DNA of 38,962 nucleotides from positions 10,301 to 49,262 of the forward strand of contig DCFC01000039.1 in assembly GCA_002314325.1 (NCBI GenBank), written 5' to 3'. A program made the translations under genes and the position numbers. Shown here piece by piece: positions 3,803-15,292 of the stretch. The first letter of the stretch is position 1, and each line of letters opens with the position of its first letter. The notes under the pieces were generated by a model. That model was not told the DNA's origin. It did no database searches and worked only from the letters and a program-made list of their open reading frames with translations. This DNA is from Megamonas hypermegale (GTDB lineage: Bacteria; Bacillota; Negativicutes; Selenomonadales; Selenomonadaceae).

Positions 3803-3832
3803 AAAAGCAGGCATTAATTGCCTGCTTTTTTA
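3803..3832 (+). terminator. Terminator shared by ileS and the convergent minus-strand gene
   Basis: GCAGGCA and TGCCTGC form the core of an A/T-flanked stem (AAAAGCAGGCA...TGCCTGCTTTT) with a short loop. A-rich and T-rich sides make it likely to work in both directions between convergent genes. Confidence 0.85.
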
Positions 3833-4312
3833 TAAGTCGATTATGCGTATTTCATTGCCGTGCGGCAGCAGCAGATTATATAAATCTGCAAATTTCATAA
3901 AAATTGTCGTCGTGTTTTCCATCGGGTGCATGCCGATTGTCTGATTTTCCAGTTCCTTATCAAAAATCATCAGGATATTTTTATCCGTATTGTTCAAAAT
4001 AGCCAGCGGCGTTACACTGCCCGGCTTAACGCCCAGCATTTCTTCCATAGCGTCCTGTTTGGCAAAACTCAGACGCTTGCTCGGAATTTTGGCGCTGAGC
4101 TCTTTAAGGTTTATTTGTTTGTGTACGAACAGCGATACGAGATAGTAGTTTTTCTTTTTCGCATCGCAGAGAAACAGATTGCGGATGACTTTGTCGTGAT
4201 TGGGCAAGTCGGACTTGTCGCCTTCCTCCACCGAAAAAATCGGCGCATGTTCATATTTAATGAAGTCAATATGTTTATCAGTGAGATATTGCAGTATTTC
4301 AGCCTTGTTCAA
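3830..4312 (-). CDS. ProX/PrdX-type aminoacyl-tRNA deacylase (YbaK fold)
   Basis: This 160-residue protein matches the stand-alone editing-domain family related to the ProRS INS domain. Proteins of this family hydrolyse mischarged tRNA-Pro (Ala- or Cys-type) in the cytoplasm. Supporting sequence includes the N-terminal YEHAPIFSVEEG, the lysine-rich KVIRNLFLCDAKKKNYYLV strand pair, and GVKPGSVTPLAILN near the middle, which is the family's typical glycine-rich substrate loop. The start appears to be TTG at 4312-4310, with AAAGGAG upstream on the minus strand. The gene is alone, with a hairpin on each side. The exact substrate cannot be read from the sequence. Confidence 0.85.
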   Translation of the reverse strand: MNKAEILQYLTDKHIDFIKYEHAPIFSVEEGDKSDLPNHDKVIRNLFLCDAKKKNYYLVSLFVHKQINLKELSAKIPSKRLSFAKQDAMEEMLGVKPGSVTPLAILNNTDKNILMIFDKELENQTIGMHPMENTTTIFMKFADLYNLLLPHGNEIRIIDL

Positions 4313-4342
4313 GATAAAAACTCCTTTGCAGTGTAATGCAAA

Positions 4343-4377
4343 ATAACCTGAAGAAAAATCTTCAGGTTATTTTTTTG
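4343..4377. terminator. Strong hairpin between the deacylase gene and the CRISPR island
   Basis: A perfect 12-pair stem (ATAACCTGAAGA, 4343-4354; TCTTCAGGTTAT, 4359-4370) has a four-base loop. Seven T follow on the plus strand, and a shorter T run follows on the minus strand. It could end a minus-strand transcript coming out of the island (the crRNA-like RNA) before it enters the deacylase gene. The plus-strand reading has no obvious gene to terminate. Confidence 0.75.
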
Positions 4378-4422
4378 CGTAAATGCCAGATTAGCGACTT
4401 TCTATCGGATATATATAATAGA

Positions 4423-4563
4423 AAGCCAAAACAACGTTTGTTGAGGTTAAATTCCTTTGAATAGTTAAAACTAACAAATATTCAAATACAACTAATGTTG
4501 AGGTTGATATATATGTTAAACATATATAGTTGTTAGCTGAAAGATATTTAAATGTAACCTATG
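4423..4563 (-). ncRNA. Predicted crRNA-like RNA (CreA/CreR-like) made of degenerate CRISPR repeats
   Basis: On the minus strand, 4509-4480 matches the array repeat at 25 of 30 bases and keeps the 3' handle TATTTGAAT exactly. 4452-4423 matches at about 21 of 30, including GGTT/AACC core blocks. Between them lies a 27-base spacer-like segment (4479-4453). A third, weaker repeat-like stretch (4575-4546, about 20 of 30) lies one array period (66 bases) upstream and overlaps the promoter. A hairpin-forming stretch (about 4396-4424) and the hairpin at 4343-4370 follow. The arrangement repeat-spacer-repeat in antisense orientation next to cas6 fits known CreA antitoxin or cas-regulating RNAs. The RNA ends are estimates. 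Confidence 0.7.
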
Positions 4564-4569
4564 TTTAAG

Positions 4570-4598
4570 ATTATATATAATTATTGCAATAAAAACAA
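4570..4598 (-). promoter_or_regulatory. Promoter for the crRNA-like RNA (minus strand)
   Basis: Read on the minus strand, TTGTTT (4598-4593) and TATAAT (4575-4570) are 17 bases apart. Transcription would start near 4563 and run through the degenerate repeats. AT richness raises the chance of false matches, but the spacing and the -10 box are ideal. Confidence 0.55.
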
Positions 4599-4650
4599 TT
4601 AAAAGTATAAAAATTGTTAGATAATTTATATTAATAATAGTGAAAAGGTA

Positions 4651-4679
4651 TTGCATATTCTTTAATTTCGTTCTATAAT
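4651..4679 (+). promoter_or_regulatory. Strong promoter of the small peptide gene
   Basis: TTGCAT (4651-4656) and TATAAT (4674-4679) are exactly 17 bases apart, with a start expected at about 4685-4688. The 14 bases at 4683-4696, across that start, are identical to the spacer-like segment of the crRNA-like RNA. The promoter is therefore placed where Cascade binding would block it. Confidence 0.75.
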
Positions 4680-4711
4680 ATATAAAACTAACAAATTGAG
4701 AGGTAAAAACA

Positions 4712-4786
4712 ATGGTAGCTTTTAAAAATTTTTTAAAAGTTATCGAGTTGGTTATTAAGTTAATTAACACGATAGCTAAATTATAG
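4712..4786 (+). CDS. 24-residue cationic amphipathic peptide, candidate CreT-type toxin
   Basis: The ATG at 4712 has GAGAGGT (4698-4704) upstream and the frame ends with TAG at 4784-4786. The peptide begins MVAFKNFLKV and ends NTIAKL. Lys at 5, 9, 16 and 23, Glu 12, and polar Asn/Thr at 6, 19 and 20 recur every three to four residues among Val, Ile, Leu and Phe, so one helix would have a sharp polar face. The predicted net charge is about +3. Such peptides commonly act on membranes, as type I toxins or phenol-soluble-modulin-like peptides do. It sits in the island between antisense degenerate repeats and cas6, under its own strong promoter. Its role as a toxin held in check by Cascade is inferred from context. 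It has no recognised homolog by eye. Confidence 0.6.
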   Translation: MVAFKNFLKVIELVIKLINTIAKL

Positions 4787-4815
4787 GTAACAGGGCTAAT
4801 ATGTAGCCCTGTTAC
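4787..4815 (+). other. Perfect 12-bp hairpin directly after the peptide stop codon
   Basis: GTAACAGGGCTA (4787-4798) pairs with TAGCCCTGTTAC (4804-4815) across a five-base loop. It begins on the base after the peptide stop. There is no T run, so it is not a classical terminator. It may protect the 3' end of the peptide mRNA or slow polymerase. Its 3' arm is shared with the palindrome at 4810-4834, so only one of the two can form in RNA. Confidence 0.7.
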
Positions 4816-4840
4816 AATGATAGCTATTGTAACATATAAA
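4810..4840 (+). promoter_or_regulatory. cas operon promoter with embedded palindromic operator
   Basis: TTACAA (4812-4817) and TATAAA (4835-4840) are 17 bases apart and would give a roughly 20-base leader with GAAAGGA before cas6. The -35 box and the whole spacer lie in a perfect palindrome, TGTTACAAT (4810-4818) and ATTGTAACA (4826-4834) around seven bases. This is the usual place for a repressor operator. The regulator is not in the window. Confidence 0.6.
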
Positions 4841-4866
4841 CAAAAAATAAGAAAGGAAAAATTTTT

Positions 4867-5559
4867 ATGAAAGTATATCAAATACGAATGCAGATTTTCT
4901 TGCTACAAGATGTCAGCGCAAACAGAATACAGGAAAAAATCACGGCATTCATTGATGCAGGTTTTAGTCGTAGTGAAAAACTTATAACCTTTCATGAAGA
5001 AAACAAGTATAAGAATTATTGCTACGATTTGCCGTTTCCGCTAGAAGCGGATAAGATTTACAAAAAAGGTAAAATCTATACGCTGACTATTCGGACGATT
5101 GATATGGAACTGGCCAAGTATTTTAAAAATGTATGCGTCAATAATTACACTATGGAAATTAAAGGGTTGATAGCAGATATTAAGGTTTTGCCGAAGAAAA
5201 TGCTGGAAACGGTGTACACGCTGACTCCTCTGATAGTGAAGACGCATGAGGGATATTGGCGTGCAGTTATGGATTTATCTGAATGGGAAGAACGGGTCAA
5301 AGTAAATTTGATAAAAAAATGGAACAGGTTTAATAATGAAAAGATTAATGAAGATTTTGACCTGTATACTTCTATTGAGTTTAAAAACAAAATTCCTGTT
5401 GCTGTAACGTACAAGAATGTTAAATTGCTCGGCGACAAAATTCAGCTGATGGTTGCTGATAATGAAAGGGCGCAAAATCTCATGTATATGGCACTGGGAA
5501 CGGGAATCGGCGAGATGAATTCGCGCGGCTTAGGATTTCTGAGTTATCGTTGGTTATAA
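4867..5559 (+). CDS. cas6: Cas6, crRNA-processing endoribonuclease (type I-B)
   Basis: Cas6 cuts the precursor CRISPR transcript inside each repeat and leaves the 5' handle on the crRNA. The 230-residue protein ends with the family's glycine-rich loop, GTGIGEMNSRGLGFL (about 212-226). His43 in LITFHEENKYKNY is a plausible catalytic histidine, because one is usual near this place in Cas6b. The ATG is preceded by GAAAGGA. It is the first gene of the operon and cas8b starts 17 bases after its stop. The protein is also expected to process the degenerate-repeat RNA at 4423-4563 if its repeats still fold. Confidence 0.93.
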   Translation: MKVYQIRMQIFLLQDVSANRIQEKITAFIDAGFSRSEKLITFHEENKYKNYCYDLPFPLEADKIYKKGKIYTLTIRTIDMELAKYFKNVCVNNYTMEIKGLIADIKVLPKKMLETVYTLTPLIVKTHEGYWRAVMDLSEWEERVKVNLIKKWNRFNNEKINEDFDLYTSIEFKNKIPVAVTYKNVKLLGDKIQLMVADNERAQNLMYMALGTGIGEMNSRGLGFLSYRWL

Positions 5560-5576: not shown

Positions 5577-7409
5577 ATGTTTGAAGAATGTTTAGAGGTA
5601 TTTGAAAAGCAACTGCAGAAAAAAGGTGAAGGTATTATTCTTGATGAATATATACCGGCTGACGGCTCTTATATTATTGTGAAAAAGGATGGCAGTGTAA
5701 AATGTGTAGAAATTAAGATAGATAAGAAAACAAAAACACTGGAAAAATTGGATAAATCAGATGAAAGTTTTTCTGATATCCGTCTTTATGACTATCACAG
5801 CAAACTTATTTCCATGAATAAGCCGGTAGACCCGAAAAAAGTTATTCATTCTAATAATTATTTTTCTTTTGCGGTAAAGAAAGACAGTGTTGTGAGCGGA
5901 AAATTAACGGAAGGTATAATTGACGGATATTACCGTATTTTGTCTGACCCGCTGGAGAATAAATACAAGAAATCGAAAGAAGCCAGCAGAATTTACAAGG
6001 ATTTCGAGCAGAAAAACGGTACGGTTGATTTAGGGCTTTTAGAGAATAATAAAACATGGATAAAAGAGAATATTTTCAAGATAGATGAAGTAGCTGAGAT
6101 TGATATGACGAAGAAGGATTATCTGAAAATATTCTTTGAAGCGGATGAAACTGATTATGTGCGGGAAGACAATCGTTATATACTGCCGCATATTTATAAC
6201 AGCAACGATTATAATGTAGAAGTTGAAGGTGAAATCCGAGGAATACCTGATAATAATTACGGAATGAATGCCAAGAAACCTTTTTTGTCGATAAAGACGC
6301 GTAAAGTTCCGGCAGGTTATTTGCTGAATGGTGAAGAAGTTTTATTGCAGAAGCAGTTCTTTGATTATTTGATGAATTTAGCTTCTACTGGCAGAAATAA
6401 TGTATATATTGATACAGAACGATTAAAAATAAAGGCGCTAGAAGAAGCAGATAATAGAGATAAAAACTTAAACATTCGTTCTGGTTATTATCTGCGCTTG
6501 CGTAAAGGTAAAGAATTGGAAATACAAACGCAGGATAATATTGTTGATTATAAAAATGAACTGCATAAAAGTCTGCATTTTAGAGATATATTAGGTATAA
6601 AATTTGATAAAGTGCCAGATTATGCTCAAAATTATAAGGATTGTTTTACCAGAATGGAAACTGCCGGTTTAATAAATGAAATATTCTTTTCAAAGTTCTT
6701 GCATAACAATTATTTTACGGATGTTAGCGATATCAATATTAATGACAGTATATTGAAGTTTAATATCATTACGTATAGAAATGTAATTTTTGATTGGGCT
6801 TATAAAGGCATCGATAAAGATTTTGCCAGTGCTGTAGATAAGTTTTCTTTAAATATGATAAAGAATTCTCTTTTGAAGAATAATAAAATAAGAGCTGTTT
6901 TGCAGTTAAATTTGAGATGGTGCTTGAAAGATAGATTTGCTGTAAAGGAAGGAGATAAAGAAATGGCAACTATAGCAACGGAATTGAGAAAGACTGTAAA
7001 AGAAAAAATTTTGCAGAGAAAGGAAGGAGTGGAAAATATTCGTTTGGAAAATGATGCGGAGTATTATTATGTTGTCGGTCAGCTTGTTAAGTATTTTATC
7101 TTTTTAAGCCGGGCAAGCAAAAAAACGCAATCGATGATTAATCCGTTTATTAATGCGAAGAATGGTACGGTTGTTATGGATAGACTATTTAAGTTCTATA
7201 CTAAATATAATTATGATATCTATGATAATAGTAAAACATTCAATGCTTTGTTGGCTATGGCTATTGAATATGGAAAAGTAAAGAATGTAAATCAGGAAAT
7301 GTTAATTTTTGGATATCTTGATGATAACTTGATTTTAGAAAAGAGTAAAAAAGACAATACAGTAGTTACAAAAAATGATGTAGATAAAAATATTGAGGAG
7401 GAAAAATAA
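5577..7409 (+). CDS. cas8b: Cas8b, large subunit of type I-B Cascade (Csh1/TM1802-like)
   Basis: Cas8b recognises the PAM and opens target DNA within Cascade. The 610-residue protein follows cas6 behind a strong AAAGGAGG site. It has the lysine-rich, low-complexity N-terminal half and the DYHSKLISMNKPVDPKK block typical of the Csh1/TM1802 family. No zinc finger of the CxxC type is evident. The last 148 residues form a mostly helical domain with its own in-frame ribosome site and ATG (see cas11b). Its family place rests on operon position, length and family resemblance, because Cas8 proteins vary greatly. Confidence 0.88.
   Translation: MFEECLEVFEKQLQKKGEGIILDEYIPADGSYIIVKKDGSVKCVEIKIDKKTKTLEKLDKSDESFSDIRLYDYHSKLISMNKPVDPKKVIHSNNYFSFAVKKDSVVSGKLTEGIIDGYYRILSDPLENKYKKSKEASRIYKDFEQKNGTVDLGLLENNKTWIKENIFKIDEVAEIDMTKKDYLKIFFEADETDYVREDNRYILPHIYNSNDYNVEVEGEIRGIPDNNYGMNAKKPFLSIKTRKVPAGYLLNGEEVLLQKQFFDYLMNLASTGRNNVYIDTERLKIKALEEADNRDKNLNIRSGYYLRLRKGKELEIQTQDNIVDYKNELHKSLHFRDILGIKFDKVPDYAQNYKDCFTRMETAGLINEIFFSKFLHNNYFTDVSDININDSILKFNIITYRNVIFDWAYKGIDKDFASAVDKFSLNMIKNSLLKNNKIRAVLQLNLRWCLKDRFAVKEGDKEMATIATELRKTVKEKILQRKEGVENIRLENDAEYYYVVGQLVKYFIFLSRASKKTQSMINPFINAKNGTVVMDRLFKFYTKYNYDIYDNSKTFNALLAMAIEYGKVKNVNQEMLIFGYLDDNLILEKSKKDNTVVTKNDVDKNIEEEK
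6963..7409 (+). CDS. cas11b: Predicted Cas11b small subunit from an internal start within cas8b
   Basis: An in-frame ATG at codon 463 of cas8b is preceded by an AAGGAG core (6949-6954) eight bases away, inside a purine run AAAGGAAGGAGATAAAG. This site is as good as any in the operon. The product, starting MATIATELRKTV, would be 148 residues and helical. Separate translation of the Cas8 C-terminal part as Cas11 is established for several type I-B, I-C and I-D systems. Here it is predicted from the ribosome site, reading frame and size. Confidence 0.75.
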   Translation: MATIATELRKTVKEKILQRKEGVENIRLENDAEYYYVVGQLVKYFIFLSRASKKTQSMINPFINAKNGTVVMDRLFKFYTKYNYDIYDNSKTFNALLAMAIEYGKVKNVNQEMLIFGYLDDNLILEKSKKDNTVVTKNDVDKNIEEEK

Positions 7410-7410
7410 G

Positions 7411-8373
7411 ATGGATAAAAGCATGAATAAGAGAGTATACGGTATTTTGGGAATTTCTTCGATTTGGGCAAACTGGAATGCGGACTTTTCCGGCTATCCG
7501 AAATCTTTAAGCGACGGCAGAGTATTCGGCAGTGATAAAGCTTTGAAATACCCTATGAAAAAAATGTGGGATAATGAAGGACAAAAAGTGCTTTATATAA
7601 AATCTATGAAACTTGTTGAAGGTAAAAAAGGAGAAACTACTTTTGTTCCTAGAAGTTTGCGGGAACGGTATGAATTTTTGTACGGTGCAAGTGATTTAAA
7701 AGATGTAAAAGAAGTTTTGACGAATTTAATGAACTCCGTTGATGTAAAGAATTTCGGTGCGACATTTGCTGAAGCAGGTTGTAATATTGCCATTACTGGA
7801 GCTGTGCAGGTAGGACAGGGCTTTAATAAATATGAAAATACGACAGCTGAAGAACAGCAGATTTTATCGCCATTCCGTGATGCAACAGCTACGAAGAAAA
7901 ATGAGAATAATGAAGATGAAGAAGCGAAAAATTCCACGCTCGGTACGAAAATCGGCAGCAGTGAAGCACATTATTTTTATCCGTTCGTAATTAATCCGCT
8001 TGCATATAAAGAGCTGGTAAGTTTGGATGTAACAGAAGGCTATACGGATGAGGATTACCAGAATTTCAAACGTACAGCGCTTGTATCGGCGACAGCTTTT
8101 GCCACGAATTCTAAAATCGGTTGTGAAAATGAATTTGCCGTATTTGTTGAAACGAAAGTCGATACGTATCTGCCAAATTTATCCGAATATGTGGATTTCA
8201 GCAAGAATGAAGACAAAAATTATATTGATATGGAAAAAATGGCTGAACTTTTAAATACAATGGCAGATAATATCAGTAGTGTGGAAATTTATTACAATCC
8301 GTATACAACAATTTTAAAGGGAGAAATAAAAGACGCTAAATATTTCAATATTTTAACCTTAAAAGAGGTGTAA
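7411..8373 (+). CDS. cas7: Cas7, Cascade backbone protein (Csh2 family)
   Basis: Cas7 forms the helical filament that holds the crRNA spacer. The chosen ATG at 7411 follows GAGGAGG (7395-7401), which lies in the end of cas8b. The stop of cas8b and this start are one base apart, so they are coupled. The product has 320 residues and starts MDKSMNKRVYGILGISSIWAN, then NADFSGYPKSL, features of the Csh2/Cas7b family. An upstream TTG would add six residues but lies within the ribosome site. Bases 7523-7555 (codons 38-49) recur exactly in the MITE-like insert before murE (18946-18978). Confidence 0.93.
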   Translation: MDKSMNKRVYGILGISSIWANWNADFSGYPKSLSDGRVFGSDKALKYPMKKMWDNEGQKVLYIKSMKLVEGKKGETTFVPRSLRERYEFLYGASDLKDVKEVLTNLMNSVDVKNFGATFAEAGCNIAITGAVQVGQGFNKYENTTAEEQQILSPFRDATATKKNENNEDEEAKNSTLGTKIGSSEAHYFYPFVINPLAYKELVSLDVTEGYTDEDYQNFKRTALVSATAFATNSKIGCENEFAVFVETKVDTYLPNLSEYVDFSKNEDKNYIDMEKMAELLNTMADNISSVEIYYNPYTTILKGEIKDAKYFNILTLKEV

Positions 8374-8376
8374 TTT

Positions 8377-9198
8377 ATGGAAATTTTGCGATTTAAACTG
8401 AGCGGTAAAAATGCGTTCTTTAAAAAGCCGGAAGTGAATACGTATTGTTATTTTACCTATGGTAATATTCACAAGGTGGCTCTTCTCGGGATTTTCGGCG
8501 CGATATTGGGTTACAGCGGTTACACGCAGATACAGGATATGATAAAGCCGAAAAAGAAAAAAACGAAACTGGAGCCGTCTTATCCGGAGTTTTATGAACG
8601 CTTGAAAGATTTAAAAGTAGCGATACTGCCGCTTAATGAAAAAGGAAATATTCCTAAGAAGATACAGGCGTTTAATAATTCCGTAGGATATGCTTCCAGA
8701 GAGCAGGGCGGAAATCTGATTGTCAAAGAGCAGTGGCTGGAAAATCCTGCTTGGGAAATCTGCGTGCTGATTGATTGTGAAGAAGCAGAAAAACTGAAAG
8801 ATGCCATTCAAAATCATAAATGTGTGTATTATCCGTATCTGGGAAAAAATGACCATTTGGCGGATATAGAATTTATTTCCGTAGATGAAGCGAAATTAGC
8901 AGATGGTAAAGAATATATAATAAATAGCTTTATAAAAAAAGGCGATTTTTCCTTTAGTGACTATGATGAAGAAGAACTTGAGGAAGATAAACATTTGTCG
9001 GAAGAAGAAATAGCGGCATATAATGAATTTAAATACGAAGAAGCTTTACCGTATACTATAGATGAATATGTAAATAATTATAAATTGGAAAGATTTGTAT
9101 ATACAGGTAGCTTTGTAAAGATAAAAAACAAGGAAATTTATTGCTTGAGCCAGCAAAAAGAAAACAAGAAAGAAAGAAAATATATTGTTTTCTATTAA
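8377..9198 (+). CDS. cas5: Cas5, crRNA 5'-handle binding subunit (Cas5h-like)
   Basis: Cas5 caps the 5' handle of the crRNA in Cascade. The 273-residue protein begins MEILRFKLSGKNAFFKKPE and continues with a glycine-rich helix, KVALLGIFGAILGYSGY, which is the usual start of Cas5 (RAMP fold plus a PAM-side loop). The ATG lies three bases after the cas7 stop, with AGAGGTG before it. An acidic stretch near 190-205 is variable in the family. The assignment rests on order, N-terminal motif and size. Confidence 0.88.
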   Translation: MEILRFKLSGKNAFFKKPEVNTYCYFTYGNIHKVALLGIFGAILGYSGYTQIQDMIKPKKKKTKLEPSYPEFYERLKDLKVAILPLNEKGNIPKKIQAFNNSVGYASREQGGNLIVKEQWLENPAWEICVLIDCEEAEKLKDAIQNHKCVYYPYLGKNDHLADIEFISVDEAKLADGKEYIINSFIKKGDFSFSDYDEEELEEDKHLSEEEIAAYNEFKYEEALPYTIDEYVNNYKLERFVYTGSFVKIKNKEIYCLSQQKENKKERKYIVFY

Positions 9199-9260: not shown

Positions 9261-11819
9261 ATGGAAACTATAAATCTGACTAATTTGATAAAAAATTTAA
9301 ATATGTACAGAGCACACAGCAGATGTCTTGATGAAAATGCGGAAAATAGAGAATATGTATATGAAACATTACAGGAACATACAGATAGAACATCTAAATA
9401 TTTTAAAAAGTTCTGGCAAGCTAAAAAATGCGATATTGTCTTTGAAAAATTTTGTGATAACATTTGGACAGAAATTGATGATAATGATAAGAATTATATT
9501 AAGAAAATTTTAAAAGAAATGATTTTTGCTATACCTATTTTTCATGATACCGGTAAAATAAATCCTGTTTTTCAGAAAGAAGTAATGAAAAATGTAAAAT
9601 TTACGGGAATTAACGATTTTAGCAGTAAAAATCACGCAATGATATCGACAGTAATTTATATTGATTATTTTAGATATAATGTTGTGGGAAAAATAAAAGA
9701 TAGAAAACTAAGAGATTTATTAAAACCGTTTATTTTATATAATGCTTATGTAATTTTCAGACATCACAGTGATTTATGTGATTTTAATAAATTTATCGGA
9801 AGATTAGAAACTGTACGAGAAAAAATTATAGAAGCTATAAATAAAAATGAAATTTGCACAGAAAAATTAAAATGGCGTGAAAATACGATTAAAAAGATAA
9901 TGGAAAATATTACAACGGATAGAAAAAATTTTTCCACAAAACAGAATTTATACGTATATATTTATGAGAGATTATTATATTCATTGTTAGTGGCCAGTGA
10001 TTATTATGCGACCGGTGAATTTGAAAACGGAGCGGAATTCAAGCAGGATGGAGATATAGATGATATAAGCAAATGGAAAGAGGTTTATGAGAGCACATCA
10101 TTGATGAAAAGTATACGTGCTTATCAGCAGAATAATTTTCCGCAAGATGAACAGAAATTACAAGAAGTTAGAGATATAAACGTTCTGCGCAGTGAGATTT
10201 TTTGCGAAGCGGAAGCGGTGCTTAATGATGAATATAAGAATAACATATTTTATCTGGAAGCGCCGACCGGTAGCGGCAAGAGCAATACGGCGATTAATTT
10301 GAGCTTTAAACTGATGGAATTGGATAGAAGATTAAAGAAAATATTTTATGTATATCCGTTTAATACACTTGTTGAACAGAATACGGAAACTTTAGAGAAT
10401 ATATTTGCTCAAAATCAGTCTATAATGCAAAGTATCGCTGTGCTCAATTCATTGACACCGATTAAAATAGATAAACAAAGTGAAAATGAAGATAATGTAT
10501 ATCAGCAGGCGTTGTTTGACCGGCAGTTTTTGAATTATCCTATGGTTCTTACAACACATGTGAATTTATTCGAAACATTATTCGGTAATAAGCAGAAGGC
10601 TGTATTCGGTTTTTATCAATTAGCAAACAGTGTGATTGTACTGGATGAAATTCAGAGTTATAAAAATACGCTTTGGCAGAGGATTATAAGCTATTTAAAA
10701 GCTGCAGCAGAATTGTTAAATATGAAAATCATCATCATGTCCGCTACTTTACCTGATTTTGATAAATTTTCGCATCATCAGAATGCTGCTTCGGTATTAT
10801 TGAAAAATACACGCAAATATTTCAACAACAGTATTTTTAAAAATCGAGTGGAAGTATCGTATGAAATTCTAGATAAAACGGATTTAAAGGGCGAACAGTT
10901 GGAAGATTATTTGCAGGAACACGTAAAACAGCAGATACAAGACGGCAGGCACATAATGATTGAGTTTATAAAAAAATCAACAGCGCATCGTTTTTGGGAA
11001 AAATTAAAAGAGGATGAAAATATAAATTGTGCTATAGAACTTCTTTCCGGTGATGACAGTATGGCAGAACGCAAGCGGATTTTGCAGAGAGTAAAAACGA
11101 GCAAAGAGGCTTTAATTCTGGTTTCCACTCAAGTTATTGAGGCAGGTGTCGACATTGATATGGATTTGGGCTATAAGGATATTTCTAAGCTGGACAGTGA
11201 AGAACAGTTTATGGGGCGCATAAACCGTTCATGCAGAAAATCGGGCAAAGTATATTTCTTTAATTTGGACAAAGCCAGAAGTATTTATAAAAATGATGTT
11301 AGAAATAATACGGAATTAACGTTGGCTGATGAAGCAATGCGAAAAGCGTTGGCAGAAAAAGATTTTAGTGAATATTATAATAGAGTGTTAGCTATACTCG
11401 AAAGAAATTATAGAGCAGAATATAACACATTTTTTGATAGTATACAAAATTTAGAGTGGGAAAAAATAGCAGAACAGATGAAATTGATAGATGATGATGC
11501 TTGGAGTATGACGGTATATCTGGCTAGACAAATTAAGAATGAACAGGGAGATGTTATTGACGGCGCAGAACTTTGGGAAAAATATAGAGAACTGTTGCAG
11601 GATTATTCGATGAGCTATGCAGAAAATAAAGTAAAACTTTCGTACGTTACAGCGCAAATGGCGGAATTTATGTATCAAGTTAAGAAGGTTTTATTAAACC
11701 ATGATGAAAAAATAGGTAGTATTACTTATATTGAAGATGGCGATAAGTATTTTGATGGAGGAAAATTAAATCGTGCCAGAATTCAAGGCGAAGAGAGTGA
11801 TTTTATAGATTTTGTTTAA
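9261..11819 (+). CDS. cas3: Cas3, HD nuclease and superfamily 2 helicase
   Basis: Cas3 is recruited by target-bound Cascade to unwind and shred DNA. The HD domain comes first: His40 (LQEHTD), His95-Asp96 (FHDTGK), His125 (KNHAMIS) and His168-His169 (FRHHSD) are metal ligands. The helicase part has Walker A APTGSGKS (334-341), DEIQ (462-465), SATLP (494-498), the motif V region VIEAGVDID (625-633) and motif VI QFMGRINRSCR (649-659). All key residues are present, so the effector looks active. Length is 852 residues. The ATG follows GGGAGG. A 62-base gap with a weak AACAG/CTGTT hairpin and T run separates it from cas5, so cas3 may be made at a lower level. Confidence 0.96.
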   Translation: METINLTNLIKNLNMYRAHSRCLDENAENREYVYETLQEHTDRTSKYFKKFWQAKKCDIVFEKFCDNIWTEIDDNDKNYIKKILKEMIFAIPIFHDTGKINPVFQKEVMKNVKFTGINDFSSKNHAMISTVIYIDYFRYNVVGKIKDRKLRDLLKPFILYNAYVIFRHHSDLCDFNKFIGRLETVREKIIEAINKNEICTEKLKWRENTIKKIMENITTDRKNFSTKQNLYVYIYERLLYSLLVASDYYATGEFENGAEFKQDGDIDDISKWKEVYESTSLMKSIRAYQQNNFPQDEQKLQEVRDINVLRSEIFCEAEAVLNDEYKNNIFYLEAPTGSGKSNTAINLSFKLMELDRRLKKIFYVYPFNTLVEQNTETLENIFAQNQSIMQSIAVLNSLTPIKIDKQSENEDNVYQQALFDRQFLNYPMVLTTHVNLFETLFGNKQKAVFGFYQLANSVIVLDEIQSYKNTLWQRIISYLKAAAELLNMKIIIMSATLPDFDKFSHHQNAASVLLKNTRKYFNNSIFKNRVEVSYEILDKTDLKGEQLEDYLQEHVKQQIQDGRHIMIEFIKKSTAHRFWEKLKEDENINCAIELLSGDDSMAERKRILQRVKTSKEALILVSTQVIEAGVDIDMDLGYKDISKLDSEEQFMGRINRSCRKSGKVYFFNLDKARSIYKNDVRNNTELTLADEAMRKALAEKDFSEYYNRVLAILERNYRAEYNTFFDSIQNLEWEKIAEQMKLIDDDAWSMTVYLARQIKNEQGDVIDGAELWEKYRELLQDYSMSYAENKVKLSYVTAQMAEFMYQVKKVLLNHDEKIGSITYIEDGDKYFDGGKLNRARIQGEESDFIDFV

Positions 11820-11833
11820 AAGAGGGTGAAATT

Positions 11834-12325
11834 ATGCAGATTAATGGAACATTGGTAAATTATTATTTTCATTGTAAAAGGCAGTGTTATTTATTCGGCA
11901 ACCGCATAAATTTTGAGGACAATAGTGAAGATGTGAATATCGGTAAGGCTTTGCATGAAGAAAGAGCTACACAGGATAATAATGAACTTGCTTTAGAAAA
12001 TATCAGATTAGATAAGATTACGGAAGAATATGTAACGGAAACAAAAAAATCCGATGCTGATGTAGAAGCAGCAAAATGGCAGCTTATATTGTATTTGAAG
12101 ATATTGAAAGATAAGGGTATTGTGCGGAAAGGAAGATTGGAATTTATTGAAAAAAAGAAAACGAACAAGGAAGTAATAATTATTGAGCTTACAAAAGAAT
12201 TAGAGCAGCAGTTGGAAAAACATATTAAAGAAATTGAAAAATTATTGGAACAAGATGAAATCCCAGCAGTATTAAATAAAAGAAGCTGTAAAAAATGTGC
12301 GTATTATGAATTTTGTTATATTTAA
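11834..12325 (+). CDS. cas4: Cas4, Fe-S exonuclease for spacer PAM processing
   Basis: Cas4 trims prespacers and selects the PAM before integration by Cas1-Cas2. The 163-residue protein has the iron-sulfur cysteines Cys14 (with Cys18 nearby), Cys152, Cys155 and Cys161 (CKKCAYYEFC). The RecB-like nuclease residues are His41, Asp60, the ETKK stretch at 69-72, and Gln83/Tyr87 in WQLILYL. The start lies 14 bases after the cas3 stop. A complete Cas4 suggests spacer acquisition is PAM-selective in this strain. Confidence 0.93.
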   Translation: MQINGTLVNYYFHCKRQCYLFGNRINFEDNSEDVNIGKALHEERATQDNNELALENIRLDKITEEYVTETKKSDADVEAAKWQLILYLKILKDKGIVRKGRLEFIEKKKTNKEVIIIELTKELEQQLEKHIKEIEKLLEQDEIPAVLNKRSCKKCAYYEFCYI

Positions 12326-12342
12326 ATTAAGGAGAAAATATT

Positions 12343-13344
12343 ATGAATGGCGAAGTGCAATATATTAGTTCGATGGGTGAACTTGTTCGTAAAGATAATA
12401 CATTACAATTTAGAAATAATGAAAAACATAAAAATTTACCTGTTGAAATAATTAAAGAGATTTATTGCTTGAATGAAATAACTGTAAATAGTAAGTTGTT
12501 GGATTTTCTTGCTCGTAAAGGTATTATATTGCATTTTTTTAACTATTATGGTTATTATAGCGGCACTTTTTACCCGAAAGATAAATATCGAAGCGGAAAA
12601 TTACTAATAAAACAAGTAAATAAATTTCAAAATAACAGATTAGATATAGCTAAAACTATTGTGCGCGGGATAGGAATTAATATTTATGAAGTGCTGTACC
12701 ATTATTATAAGCATGGAAAATCGGGAGTAAAAGAAACGGTAGATTGGATACGTAAAGAGTTTTATACCAATGTGGAAAAAGCAGATAATATAAAAGTTTT
12801 GCTCGCTGTTGAAGGTGAATTATGGCTTAAATTTTATGCTGCGTTTAAATATTTTTTGCCGGAAGATTTTATTATGAGCAAAAGAGTGAAAAGAAAACCG
12901 GATAATCCGATAAATGCCTTGATATCTTTTGGCAACAGCCTTTTATATGCTAAGACTGTCGCAGTGATATATGAAACACATCTTGATCAGCGTATAAGTT
13001 TTTTACATGAACCGACAGAAACGAGATTTTCACTGAGTTTGGATATCAGTGAAATTTTTAAGCCGGTAATTGTATTCAGGACGATTTTTGATTTAGTAAA
13101 TAATCGAAAAATACAAGTAGAAAAACATTTTGATCAAAAAATGAAATACTGTTTATTAAATGAGGAAGGCAGAGAAATTTTTATTAGAGCTTTTGAAGGC
13201 CGTCTGGAAAGTACATTTCAGCATCCAACATTGAAAAGAAAAACCTCTTATCGTAACGCTATAAGGCTGGATTGCTATAAATTAGAGAAATATATTATGG
13301 ATGAACAGGAGTTTATACCATTTAGTTTGAAGGCGGGATATTAA
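12343..13344 (+). CDS. cas1: Cas1, CRISPR integrase
   Basis: Cas1 integrates new spacers at the leader end of the array as a complex with Cas2. The 333-residue protein carries the metal-site residues Glu157 (AVEGEL), His222 (SFLHEP) and Asp234/Glu237 (LDISEIFKP). The fold order, N-terminal beta domain then helical domain, and the length fit type I-B Cas1. The ATG follows AAGGAG. Its stop overlaps the cas2 start by one base (TAATG), so translation is coupled. Confidence 0.96.
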   Translation: MNGEVQYISSMGELVRKDNTLQFRNNEKHKNLPVEIIKEIYCLNEITVNSKLLDFLARKGIILHFFNYYGYYSGTFYPKDKYRSGKLLIKQVNKFQNNRLDIAKTIVRGIGINIYEVLYHYYKHGKSGVKETVDWIRKEFYTNVEKADNIKVLLAVEGELWLKFYAAFKYFLPEDFIMSKRVKRKPDNPINALISFGNSLLYAKTVAVIYETHLDQRISFLHEPTETRFSLSLDISEIFKPVIVFRTIFDLVNNRKIQVEKHFDQKMKYCLLNEEGREIFIRAFEGRLESTFQHPTLKRKTSYRNAIRLDCYKLEKYIMDEQEFIPFSLKAGY

Positions 13345-13634
13345 TGGCTAAAAACTATAATTACAATTATGCTTTTGTATTTTATGATGTGAGTGAAAAA
13401 CGGGTACAAAAAGTTTTTAAAATATGCAAAAAATATCTATTCCATTTTCAAAACTCGGTATTCAGAGGAGAAATAACTCCTTCTAAATTGATACGGTTGA
13501 AAAATGAATTGAAAAGTGTAATTGTTGATGAGGAAGATTTTGTTTGTATTATAAAACTGATGAATGATAATGTTTTCGGTGAAGAATTTATAGGCCAAAA
13601 AGGCGTAGAAAAAGGAGATTTCTTGTTCATATAA
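13344..13634 (+). CDS. cas2: Cas2, structural partner of Cas1
   Basis: The 96-residue ferredoxin-like protein begins with a beta strand ending in Asp15 (AFVFYDVSEKR), the conserved acidic residue of Cas2. It then has the FHFQNSVFRGEIT segment usual for the family. It bridges two Cas1 dimers in the adaptation complex. It is the last gene of the cas operon and stops about 180 bases before the first repeat. Confidence 0.95.
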   Translation: MAKNYNYNYAFVFYDVSEKRVQKVFKICKKYLFHFQNSVFRGEITPSKLIRLKNELKSVIVDEEDFVCIIKLMNDNVFGEEFIGQKGVEKGDFLFI

Positions 13635-13815
13635 GTAGTAAAATTACCAGGCGGAAATCTTGTCAAACGAGAGAAAACCCTTATAAATAAAGGAGTTATC
13701 GCAAATCGTATCAGCTACAAGGAGAAGCAGGTTTCCGCCTGGTAAAAATAGAGAAAAAACTTGTAATATCAAGCTTTTTAAAGTATAGTATTGACATAAA
13801 GCCTTTAAATACGTA
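13635..13815 (+). promoter_or_regulatory. CRISPR leader with array promoter and a long-range inverted repeat
   Basis: The AT-rich leader lies between cas2 and the first repeat. A promoter TTGTAA (13761-13766), 17-base spacer, TATAGT (13784-13789) would start transcription about 20 bases before repeat 1. Further up, two perfect 14-base arms, TTACCAGGCGGAAA (13644-13657) and its complement (13732-13745), enclose 74 bases. They are much richer in G and C than the surroundings. The arms could form a long hairpin at the end of the cas mRNA or mark a protein-binding region for spacer integration. Confidence 0.75.
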
Positions 13816-14650
13816 GTTTAACCTTAACATTGGTTGTATTTGAATCTAAAAGCGGCTATTTAGATTGTCCGCATTTCGGACGTTTAACCTTAACATTGGT
13901 TGTATTTGAATGCGTGCTGGAATAAATGCACCAAATCCGCTTTTTTTGTTTAACCTTAACATTGGTTGTATTTGAATTCTGCAAGAGCTTTCACTGCAAC
14001 AGCAAACGGCACATTGTTTAACCTTAACATTGGTTGTATTTGAATAGAAGTTAAAGACAAATACCAAAAAACCTACGGCAAGTTTAACCTTAACATTGGT
14101 TGTATTTGAATTAGAAGATTATAACAGAGAAATAAGGAGAAATAAAAGTTTAACCTTAACATTGGTTGTATTTGAATACCGCCAGCAAATCCGAAATCTG
14201 GCTGACCTGCCCGAACAGGTTTAACCTTAACATTGGTTGTATTTGAATGTAGCTGAAGCCTTTTCCGCATTTAGGGCAATATACGTTTAACCTTAACATT
14301 GGTTGTATTTGAATACGATAAAAAGAATAATTGCAAGCCTTGAAAAAAGAGTTTAACCTTAACATTGGTTGTATTTGAATCGAGGATAATTAAGGCAGAT
14401 TGTTACTGTATCGCCGTTTAACCTTAACATTGGTTGTATTTGAATGTAAAACGGGGCAACGATGAGAGAACGAAAGAACAGGGTTTAACCTTAACATTGG
14501 TTGTATTTGAATGCGCGGCTCGATTTTGCTTCGGGTAAAGCTGGCTTTTTTGTTTAACCTTAACATTGGTTGTATTTGAATAAGGAAGCCCAAACATGGC
14601 AGACACTAGAACACTAACTAGTTTAACCTTAACATTGGTTGTGTTTAAAA
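13816..14650 (+). CRISPR. Type I-B CRISPR array: 13 repeats of 30 bp, 12 spacers
   Basis: The repeat starts GTTTAACCTTAACATTGG and ends TTGTATTTGAAT. Repeats begin at 13816, 13882, 13948, 14016, 14082, 14148, 14219, 14285, 14351, 14416, 14483, 14552 and 14621. Spacers are 35-41 bases, most of them 36. The first twelve repeats are identical. The last has a changed 3' end (GTGTTTAAAA), as expected for the oldest, leader-distal repeat. This and the leader promoter fix the direction as left to right. All 12 spacers differ from one another by eye. Read in reverse, spacer 7 would encode VYCPKCGKGFSY, which looks like part of a zinc-ribbon protein. Confidence 0.99.
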
Positions 14651-14777: not shown

Positions 14778-15242
14778 TCAGTTTTTGCTGATATCTATCC
14801 ATTCAACGGCTTGGGAATATTTTTCCAGTTCCGGAATGGTGAGTTCGATGGCACTGTTTCGGCTGCCACAGGCGGGATATACTTTTTCAAATCGTTTTAA
14901 GGATTCATCAAGATATACTTTTACGCCGTCTTTGGAAGCAAACGGGCAGACACCGCCGATAGGAAATCCGGTAAGAGCTTCCACTTCATCGCCTTTCAGC
15001 ATGGTGGCTTTTTTGTGAAATTTTTCCTTGAATTTGCGATTGTCGATGCGGACATCGCCTGCCATTACGACGAGAATGGCTTTGTCATCTAATTTGAAAG
15101 ACATTGTTTTGGCGATATGGGCTTCTTCGCAGTGAAGCGCTTGCGCAGCTTCTGCAACGGTAGCACTGGAAACGGGAAATTCCATGACTTTGTCTTCCAT
15201 GTTGAACTGTTTGAAATACGTTTTCACTTTATCGATTGACAA
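14778..15242 (-). CDS. YbaK/EbsC family aminoacyl-tRNA deacylase
   Basis: Members of this family clear mischarged tRNA-Pro (often Cys-tRNA-Pro) or related species. The protein has the family's KTMSFKLDDKAILVVMAGD segment with its conserved lysine, GFPIGGVCPFA in the middle, and VYPACGSRNSAIELT near the end. The first ATG (15251) touches its ribosome site AAGAAGGA, leaving no spacing. A TTG three codons later (15242) is eight bases away and is the likelier start, giving 154 residues beginning MSIDKVK. It is only distantly similar to the deacylase at 3830-4312. Both lie on the minus strand and flank the CRISPR island. Confidence 0.87.
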   Translation of the reverse strand: MSIDKVKTYFKQFNMEDKVMEFPVSSATVAEAAQALHCEEAHIAKTMSFKLDDKAILVVMAGDVRIDNRKFKEKFHKKATMLKGDEVEALTGFPIGGVCPFASKDGVKVYLDESLKRFEKVYPACGSRNSAIELTIPELEKYSQAVEWIDISKN

Positions 15243-15292
15243 AATAATCATTCCTTCTTATTGTAATATTGTAAACACTATGATACCATAGA

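Follow-up and report, generated by a model that had tools for sequence, protein, structure and literature searches.

A creA-like guide gene lies upstream of the type I-B cas operon in a 38,962-base stretch of Megamonas DNA (the window), and the first 14 bases of its guide match, beside a TCA, a site in front of a 24-codon open reading frame (ORF). Judging from the sequence, we consider that Cascade loaded with this guide likely sits on the predicted promoter of the peptide and blocks its transcription without Cas3 cutting (probability of about 0.7), and that a CreTA-type module with a likely toxin peptide is likely the best reading of the locus. Across related loci, 29 seeds each track their own target, which provides sequence evidence for Cascade as a gene regulator in a gut bacterium as well as in many Clostridia.

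Guide gene and target upstream of cas6

The DUF881 protein of the window shares 98-100% identity with its five nearest database proteins, one of which (99%) bears the name Megamonas sp., and this places the window in Megamonas. The type I-B locus in the window is complete (cas6-cas8b-cas7-cas5b-cas3-cas4-cas1b-cas2), and the guide gene is linked to it, as expected of a CreTA module. The features are as follows:

4423..4452, minus strand: psiR2, a second and more degenerate repeat, degenerate at its end, which closes the guide (alignment to the array repeat)
4453..4479, minus strand: spacer-like guide of 27 nt between psiR1 and psiR2, its end set by the psiR2 alignment
4480..4509, minus strand: psiR1, a degenerate CRISPR repeat that would give the guide its 5' handle, predicted as ATTTGAAT (aligned with the array repeat)
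4510..4545, minus strand: 36-nt spacer-like stretch between psiR0 and psiR1
4546..4576, minus strand: psiR0, a third repeat-like sequence with one inserted base, overlapping the predicted guide promoter (alignment to the array repeat)
4570..4598, minus strand: predicted guide promoter, TTGTTT-17 nt-TATAAT (identified by consensus alone, with criteria less strict than those of the stock scan)
4651..4679, plus strand: predicted promoter of the peptide ORF, TTGCAT-17 nt-TATAAT (consensus match only)
4683..4696, minus strand: target, identical at 14 of 14 bases to the start of the guide, with guide bases 17-20 matching at 4680-4677
4697..4699, minus strand: TCA, the predicted PAM (of the 30 comparative pairs, 28 have TCA and 2 have TCG)
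4712..4786, plus strand: 24-codon ORF MVAFKNFLKVIELVIKLINTIAKL, net charge +3, predicted amphipathic helix, putative toxin
4787..4815, plus strand: strong 12-bp hairpin between the peptide ORF and cas6, with no U run on the plus strand
4867..5559, plus strand: cas6 (TIGR01877 over cut-off)
5577..7409, plus strand: cas8b (PADLOC Cas8b, E value of 2e-169; no NCBIfam match)
7393..8373, plus strand: cas7 (PADLOC Cas7b, E value of 6e-36; NCBIfam matches below cut-off)
8377..9198, plus strand: cas5b (TIGR02592 over cut-off)
9261..11819, plus strand: cas3, with helicase and HD domains (TIGR01587 and TIGR01596 over cut-off)
11834..13634, plus strand: cas4, cas1b, and cas2
13816..14650, plus strand: CRISPR array of 13 repeats GTTTAACCTTAACATTGGTTGTATTTGAAT, the last of them degenerate

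CreTA guide genes are distinct from the array and carry one or two degenerate repeats, as psiR1 and psiR2 are when set against the array repeat. The final 13 bases of psiR1 are those of the array repeat, and its handle has no mismatch. The array itself holds 12 spacers of 35-41 nt each, and the leader between cas2 and the array contains a 17-nt inverted repeat (13644-13745, 94% complementary, arms 68 nt apart). Genes for aminoacyl-tRNA editing domains (PF04073) are found on both flanks of the CRISPR-Cas locus (3830-4312 and 14778-15251, both on the minus strand). A comparison with Rfam returned no family at the gathering score anywhere in the window, and the spacer-like stretch that follows psiR0 (4545-4510) had no target within it.

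Positions 4466-4479 and 4683-4696 both read TAAAACTAACAAAT. This identity of 4479-4466 with 4696-4683, at 14 of 14 bases, had been described in the initial annotation and was confirmed; it starts directly after the last base of psiR1. The plus strand reads TGA at 4697-4699, so that TCA stands 5' of the match on the target strand, again as had been claimed. The remark that only scattered bases match beyond base 14 proved slightly too pessimistic: guide bases 15-16 do mismatch, but bases 17-20 match contiguously and base 23 matches as well, for a total of 19 of 27. Among 20,000 dinucleotide-preserving shuffles of 4313-4866, the 14-mer was found on either strand in 1, the first 11 guide bases in 55, and TCA together with those 11 bases in none. 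In the entire window, the target was the only site that fits guide bases 1-5 and 7-11, besides the guide itself.

The target spans the expected transcription start of the 24-codon ORF. Its placement over the start that follows the TATAAT stands as first proposed, with the predicted promoter at 4651-4679 assigned by consensus. Since the -35 hexamer of this promoter is weak (3 of 6 bases), it is not listed by the stock scan, which demands at least 4 of 6 bases per hexamer. Between 4300 and 4900, that scan returned a single promoter-like site, which lies on the opposite strand, whereas shuffled sequence gave 4.8 on average; with so many expected by chance in an AT-rich stretch, single consensus matches to a promoter weigh little here. 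The partial pairing of a spacer-like part with a toxin promoter beside a PAM, a further feature of CreTA, was thus found at a predicted promoter, with a predicted PAM that is taken from the comparative set and related systems.

A likely toxin peptide and a probable shared promoter

The ORF is preceded by a ribosome-binding site (RBS; GAGAGG) 8 nt ahead of its ATG, and the hydrophobic moment of the encoded peptide is 0.535, a value reached by only 0.1% of its own shuffles. We consider the peptide a likely membrane-active toxin. It matched no Pfam family, so that where CrePA would have a KilA-N protein toxin under the guide, the window has a 24-aa peptide outside the Pfam families. A comparison with solved structures returned two weak matches to designed proteins (E values of 0.042 and 2.7), to which we give no weight.

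On the plus strand of the window, neither a promoter (under a loose consensus rule) nor a terminator was found between the ORF and cas6, which suggests that the same promoter probably drives the cas operon too, in a CreR-like manner. This probable sharing of one promoter by the peptide and the cas genes is a point that was absent from the initial annotation.

Seeds and targets change together across related loci

Relatives of Cas6 were drawn from genome contigs (31 loci) and whole genomes; a scan of viral contigs returned no Cas6 relative. The proteins most similar to the window's Cas6 are encoded on metagenome contigs (97, 84, 78, and 77% identity). The first set comprised 58 loci with a Cas6 match, or 45 after removal of duplicates, with the window included. 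A looser look at this set, which covered 1300 nt upstream and allowed up to 2 handle mismatches, preceded the fixed rule, whereby a repeat-like handle must lie at most 800 nt upstream of cas6 and guide bases 1-5 and 7-11 must occur exactly elsewhere in the stretch. The rule was thus shaped on the first set, and 30 new loci served as a fresh test.

Under the fixed rule, 17 of the 45 loci in the first set (window included) were positive, with 18 pairs (17 TCA and 1 TCG); when guides were swapped between loci, a match beside TCA arose in 1 of 2332 trials and any seed match in 50. The same rule was satisfied by 12 of the 30 new loci, with one pair each (11 TCA and 1 TCG), and with swapped guides, 2001 trials yielded 1 TCA match and 66 matches of any kind. 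Sites preceded by AAT, which are the own spacers of other repeats, were excluded from the own-guide matches in both sets; they were also excluded from the swapped control of the second set and kept in that of the first. Four rows of the second set were left uncounted, with flanks of ATG (L075), CTA (L082), and AAA (two rows of L094), and owing to these the raw listing names 14 loci against 12 counted. The L075 row is a tandem ATG run overlapping itself, and the "guides" of L082 and L094 look like reverse-complement repeats.

Collectively, we found an ectopic guide upstream of cas6 with a nearby target in 29 of 75 loci (window included). Together they make 30 pairs, two of them contributed by L028, and the flank is TCA in 28 and TCG in 2. 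No pair was counted in 46 of the 75 loci; some have a real array at this place, and some are distant or cut short. A TCA pair seen in the looser look at L014 was left out of the count, its guide lying beyond the 800-nt limit.

The seeds are distinct in all 29 loci. Some of them are alike (L087 and L024 agree at 10 of 11 bases), and the loci share ancestry, so these 29 loci are not 29 independent trials. Co-variation in relatives was a check set beforehand, and its outcome agrees with the proposal: across 29 loci with 29 seeds, seed and target change together, each seed having its own target. With distinct seeds and next to no matches after swapping, the two do not vary independently; independent variation is the result that the initial annotation had named as speaking against its claim.

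Pairing rhythm and PAM

An unpaired base at every sixth position is the mark of Cascade, and base flipping is the reason for this rhythm. Across the 30 pairs, guide positions 13, 14, 15, 16, and 17, which lie outside the search rule, match in 30, 28, 27, 23, and 25 pairs, respectively; positions 12 and 18 match in 12 each, position 6 in 14, and those from 22 onward in 5-13. When the best TCA or TCG site was chosen over bases 1-12, positions 6 and 12 matched in 13 of 29 and the others in 28-29, and swapped guides under the same best-site choice showed no dip at 6 or 12, the test being partly shaped by how the loci were chosen. The pair in the window matches at positions 6 and 12 as well. The six-base mismatch rhythm is what Cascade-type pairing would leave. 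Indeed, nucleotides 6 and 12 are described as taking no part in pairing, and in Halobacterium hubeiense, positions 6 and 12 are the two among the first twelve guide bases whose change left repression intact (PMC8501985).

The comparison of the window's array with annotated phages yielded 10 records (best E value of 0.006) and no usable protospacer from which to read a PAM. The exact 22-base starts of 6 of its 12 spacers had 0 matches each in viral contigs, and the arrays of L029 and L011 matched no phage. TCA has been confirmed in vivo as a PAM of the type I-B system of Clostridium autoethanogenum, a result that bears out the earlier statement that TCA is a working clostridial I-B PAM, and TCG is named as an alternative PAM in C. 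tyrobutyricum (PMC10328091). One survey gives CCN, not TCA, as the I-B PAM of Clostridium, and TCA for Campylobacter (PMC8482600).

Close relatives of the window

Two loci, L001 and L002, are filed under other taxa, and both are probably misbinned or transferred: the window's flanking aminoacyl-tRNA-editing gene is also present at L002 (87% identical), and the end of L001 resembles the first codons of that gene. By its cas proteins, which are 52-76% identical to those of the window, L001 probably comes from a close relative, as L002 likely does.

The L001 guide, on the minus strand and 26 nt long by eye, has a different seed and makes a 17-base match beside TCA. A TTGACA-17-TATTAT promoter sequence, a 24-codon ORF, a hairpin, and then cas6 repeat the window's layout. 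The two peptides share K-[IV]-[IV]-E-L-V-I, with weak similarity overall (shuffle p of 0.019); an amphipathic pattern is not clear in that of L001 (p of 0.17). In addition, the best-spaced ATG of L001 (by eye) starts a three-codon ORF, and weak plus-strand promoter candidates appear between its ORF and cas6 under the loose rule. The genomes searched round L001 gave the known locus only (1 of 288 and 1 of 145); among those searched round L002, 8 of 243 were positive, 7 of them distant.

In L002, a 75-codon ORF replaces the peptide, and its product, run minus the first residue, had no match in Pfam or PADLOC; about 23 nt lie between the hairpin and cas6. The strict rule fails for this locus: two sites beside TCA match its guide except at base 11, and the rule so relaxed was passed by 1 of 29 other guides in the same stretch. 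The predicted promoter of the guide and the promoter of the ORF diverge (6108-6234), each with a -35 hexamer (TTGACA) that contains one near-match TCA. From this arrangement, the L002 guide may also repress itself.

Targets of the guides in the wider set

Between target and cas6, 7 of the 29 loci have an ORF of 24 codons or more that is preceded by an RBS motif, namely, the window (24 codons), L001 (24), L017 (29), L019 (36), L028 (72), L078 (67), and L005 (146). In 14 other loci, the target is at most 150 nt from cas6 with no RBS-bearing ORF of at least 20 aa between them, as in CreR, which indicates that such a guide needs no toxin; with the second target of L028, the same applies to 15 of the 30 pairs. 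The target lies farther from cas6 in 8 loci, where no such ORF was found.

L028 (9540-9893) combines both arrangements: the seed of its single ectopic guide fits two TCA-flanked targets, of which the first precedes the 72-codon ORF and the second lies 108 nt ahead of cas6. The product of that ORF matches the PADLOC candidate-defence family PDC-M13C, with DUF3791 below the Pfam cut-off. The ectopic guide of L005 (9275-9989) has a TCG-flanked target before the 146-codon ORF, which matches the PADLOC candidate-defence family PDC-M10B (E value of 4e-68).

Some further arrangements were observed alongside these. In L017 (9712-9829) and L019 (9689-9839), from Clostridium beijerinckii and C. tertium, the lysine-rich 29- and 36-codon ORFs stand between a TCA target and a downstream guide, giving the CreTA-like order of toxin, guide, and cas6. 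In L078 (about 359 to 118 nt upstream of cas6), the target precedes the 67-codon ORF, which by eye resembles a helix-turn-helix regulator.

Proposed mechanism and alternative explanations

In the mechanism that we propose, Cas6 would process the minus-strand transcript at both degenerate repeats, and Cascade carrying the short guide would occupy the DNA leftward from 4696, across the TATAAT and the transcription start. The guide has 27 nt, where about 36 would be usual, and pairs at bases 1-14 and 17-20; its R-loop would cover the TATAAT and the start and stop short of what Cas3 needs, a view that draws on published work with shortened guides. The Cas3 encoded in the locus has both domains; no cutting is expected with partial pairing. 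In the type I-B system of Parageobacillus, guides of at most 26 nt repress and a 27-nt guide cleaves at a full match, and 24 nt is the switch length in Haloarcula hispanica (PMC10551041). Under the Parageobacillus rule, a 27-nt guide is too long, so that mismatches, and not length alone, would spare the DNA. If Cascade were lost or inhibited, the promoter would open and the likely membrane-active peptide would be made. Where the promoter is shared with the cas operon, repression would double as feedback control of Cascade.

The guide might instead only tune cas expression, as a CreR does, with the 24-codon ORF encoding an innocuous leader peptide or not being a gene. Such a role would suit the 15 of 30 pairs whose target is no more than 150 nt from cas6 and separated from it by no RBS-bearing ORF of at least 20 aa, the lack of a plus-strand terminator between the window's ORF and cas6, and the report of CreRs for types I-B, I-E, and V-A (PMC13131331). 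We consider it unlikely, however, for an ORF that has a well-spaced RBS, an amphipathic pattern, and a likely counterpart in L001, and given that 7 of the 29 loci place an RBS-bearing ORF of 24 codons or more between target and cas6. Still less probable is that the toxin acts as an RNA and not as a peptide: the window ORF has 24 codons with no rare-codon run visible (one ATA), and the CreT of Citrobacter needs in-frame translation (PMC12055562), even though the toxins of Haloarcula, Halobacterium, and Acinetobacter are all RNAs (PMC8501985, PMC10097628) and the best-spaced ATG of L001 (by eye) opens an ORF of three codons.

A functionless, decayed mini-array with an accidental self-targeting spacer is hardly credible, and nothing was found here in its favor. 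A self-matching spacer can be captured from the cell's own locus, but it would match fully, whereas the 27-nt guide matches at 19 bases; moreover, a partial match with a six-base rhythm is common to loci of unrelated seeds. The CreTA-type module with a likely toxin peptide may be part of something broader, which we put forward tentatively and at somewhat under even odds: a single promoter under Cascade repression would serve the cas operon as well as a membrane-active toxin peptide, making addiction (CreTA) and feedback (CreR) one switch, and across Clostridia and Megamonas, toxin or defence genes would dock interchangeably at this promoter slot, with the guide re-evolving to keep up with it. 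If this single-switch reading is true, loss or block of Cascade would at once raise the toxin and attempt to rebuild Cascade.

Comparison with known systems

CreTA and CreR already provide examples of such guides that target cas loci. The literature searched, with most subscription papers outside reach, described no recognizable Megamonas module, nor one promoter common to peptide and cas genes under one guide. CreTA and CreR modules are hard to find because they share little sequence (PMC8501985, PMC10097628), and the seed-plus-PAM rule is a route to finding them. If the peptide is toxic, deletion or inhibition of Cascade in strains of this kind would be costly, which is relevant to anti-CRISPR phages and to genome editing with native type I-B systems.

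The CreTA of Citrobacter rodentium resembles the window in several ways: its putative creA, situated within the cas locus, precedes a short ORF of 96 bp and is read from the other strand, and the target is in the toxin promoter region beside a PAM (PMC12055562). Cascade is required there and cas3 is not, and toxicity requires translation; unlike the window, the system is of type I-E, with ATG as its PAM and a position between cas3 and casA (PMC12055562). Toxicity has been demonstrated for C. rodentium, whereas the window peptide is a putative toxin, and the two systems are compared here by description, not by sequence.

CreTA modules with RNA toxins are known from haloarchaea and Acinetobacter (PMC8501985, PMC10097628). 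Those of the haloarchaea H. hubeiense and H. hispanica are of type I-B, like the window, and in one of them the pairing with the promoter, beside a PAM, involves bases 1-5 and 7-11 of the guide, as here. Unlike the window, creT and creA of H. hubeiense form one operon and the PAM is TTC, and the haloarchaeal toxins act as RNAs that sequester tRNA, their ORFs having four and six codons (PMC8501985). CrePA resembles the module proposed for the window in having a Cascade-repressed protein toxin with an RNA guide as the antitoxin, but CreP typically has a KilA-N domain (PMC12737573), and the window encodes a 24-aa peptide without a Pfam family.

CreR is the RNA-based autorepression of cas genes (Liu et al. 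2023, as described in PMC12737573 and PMC13131331). In it, a crRNA-like RNA takes Cascade to the cas promoter via a partial match; the layout of 14 of the 29 loci, and the second target of L028, agree with this. CreR is generally uncoupled from toxin genes (PMC12737573), whereas the window has a peptide ORF between the target and cas6.
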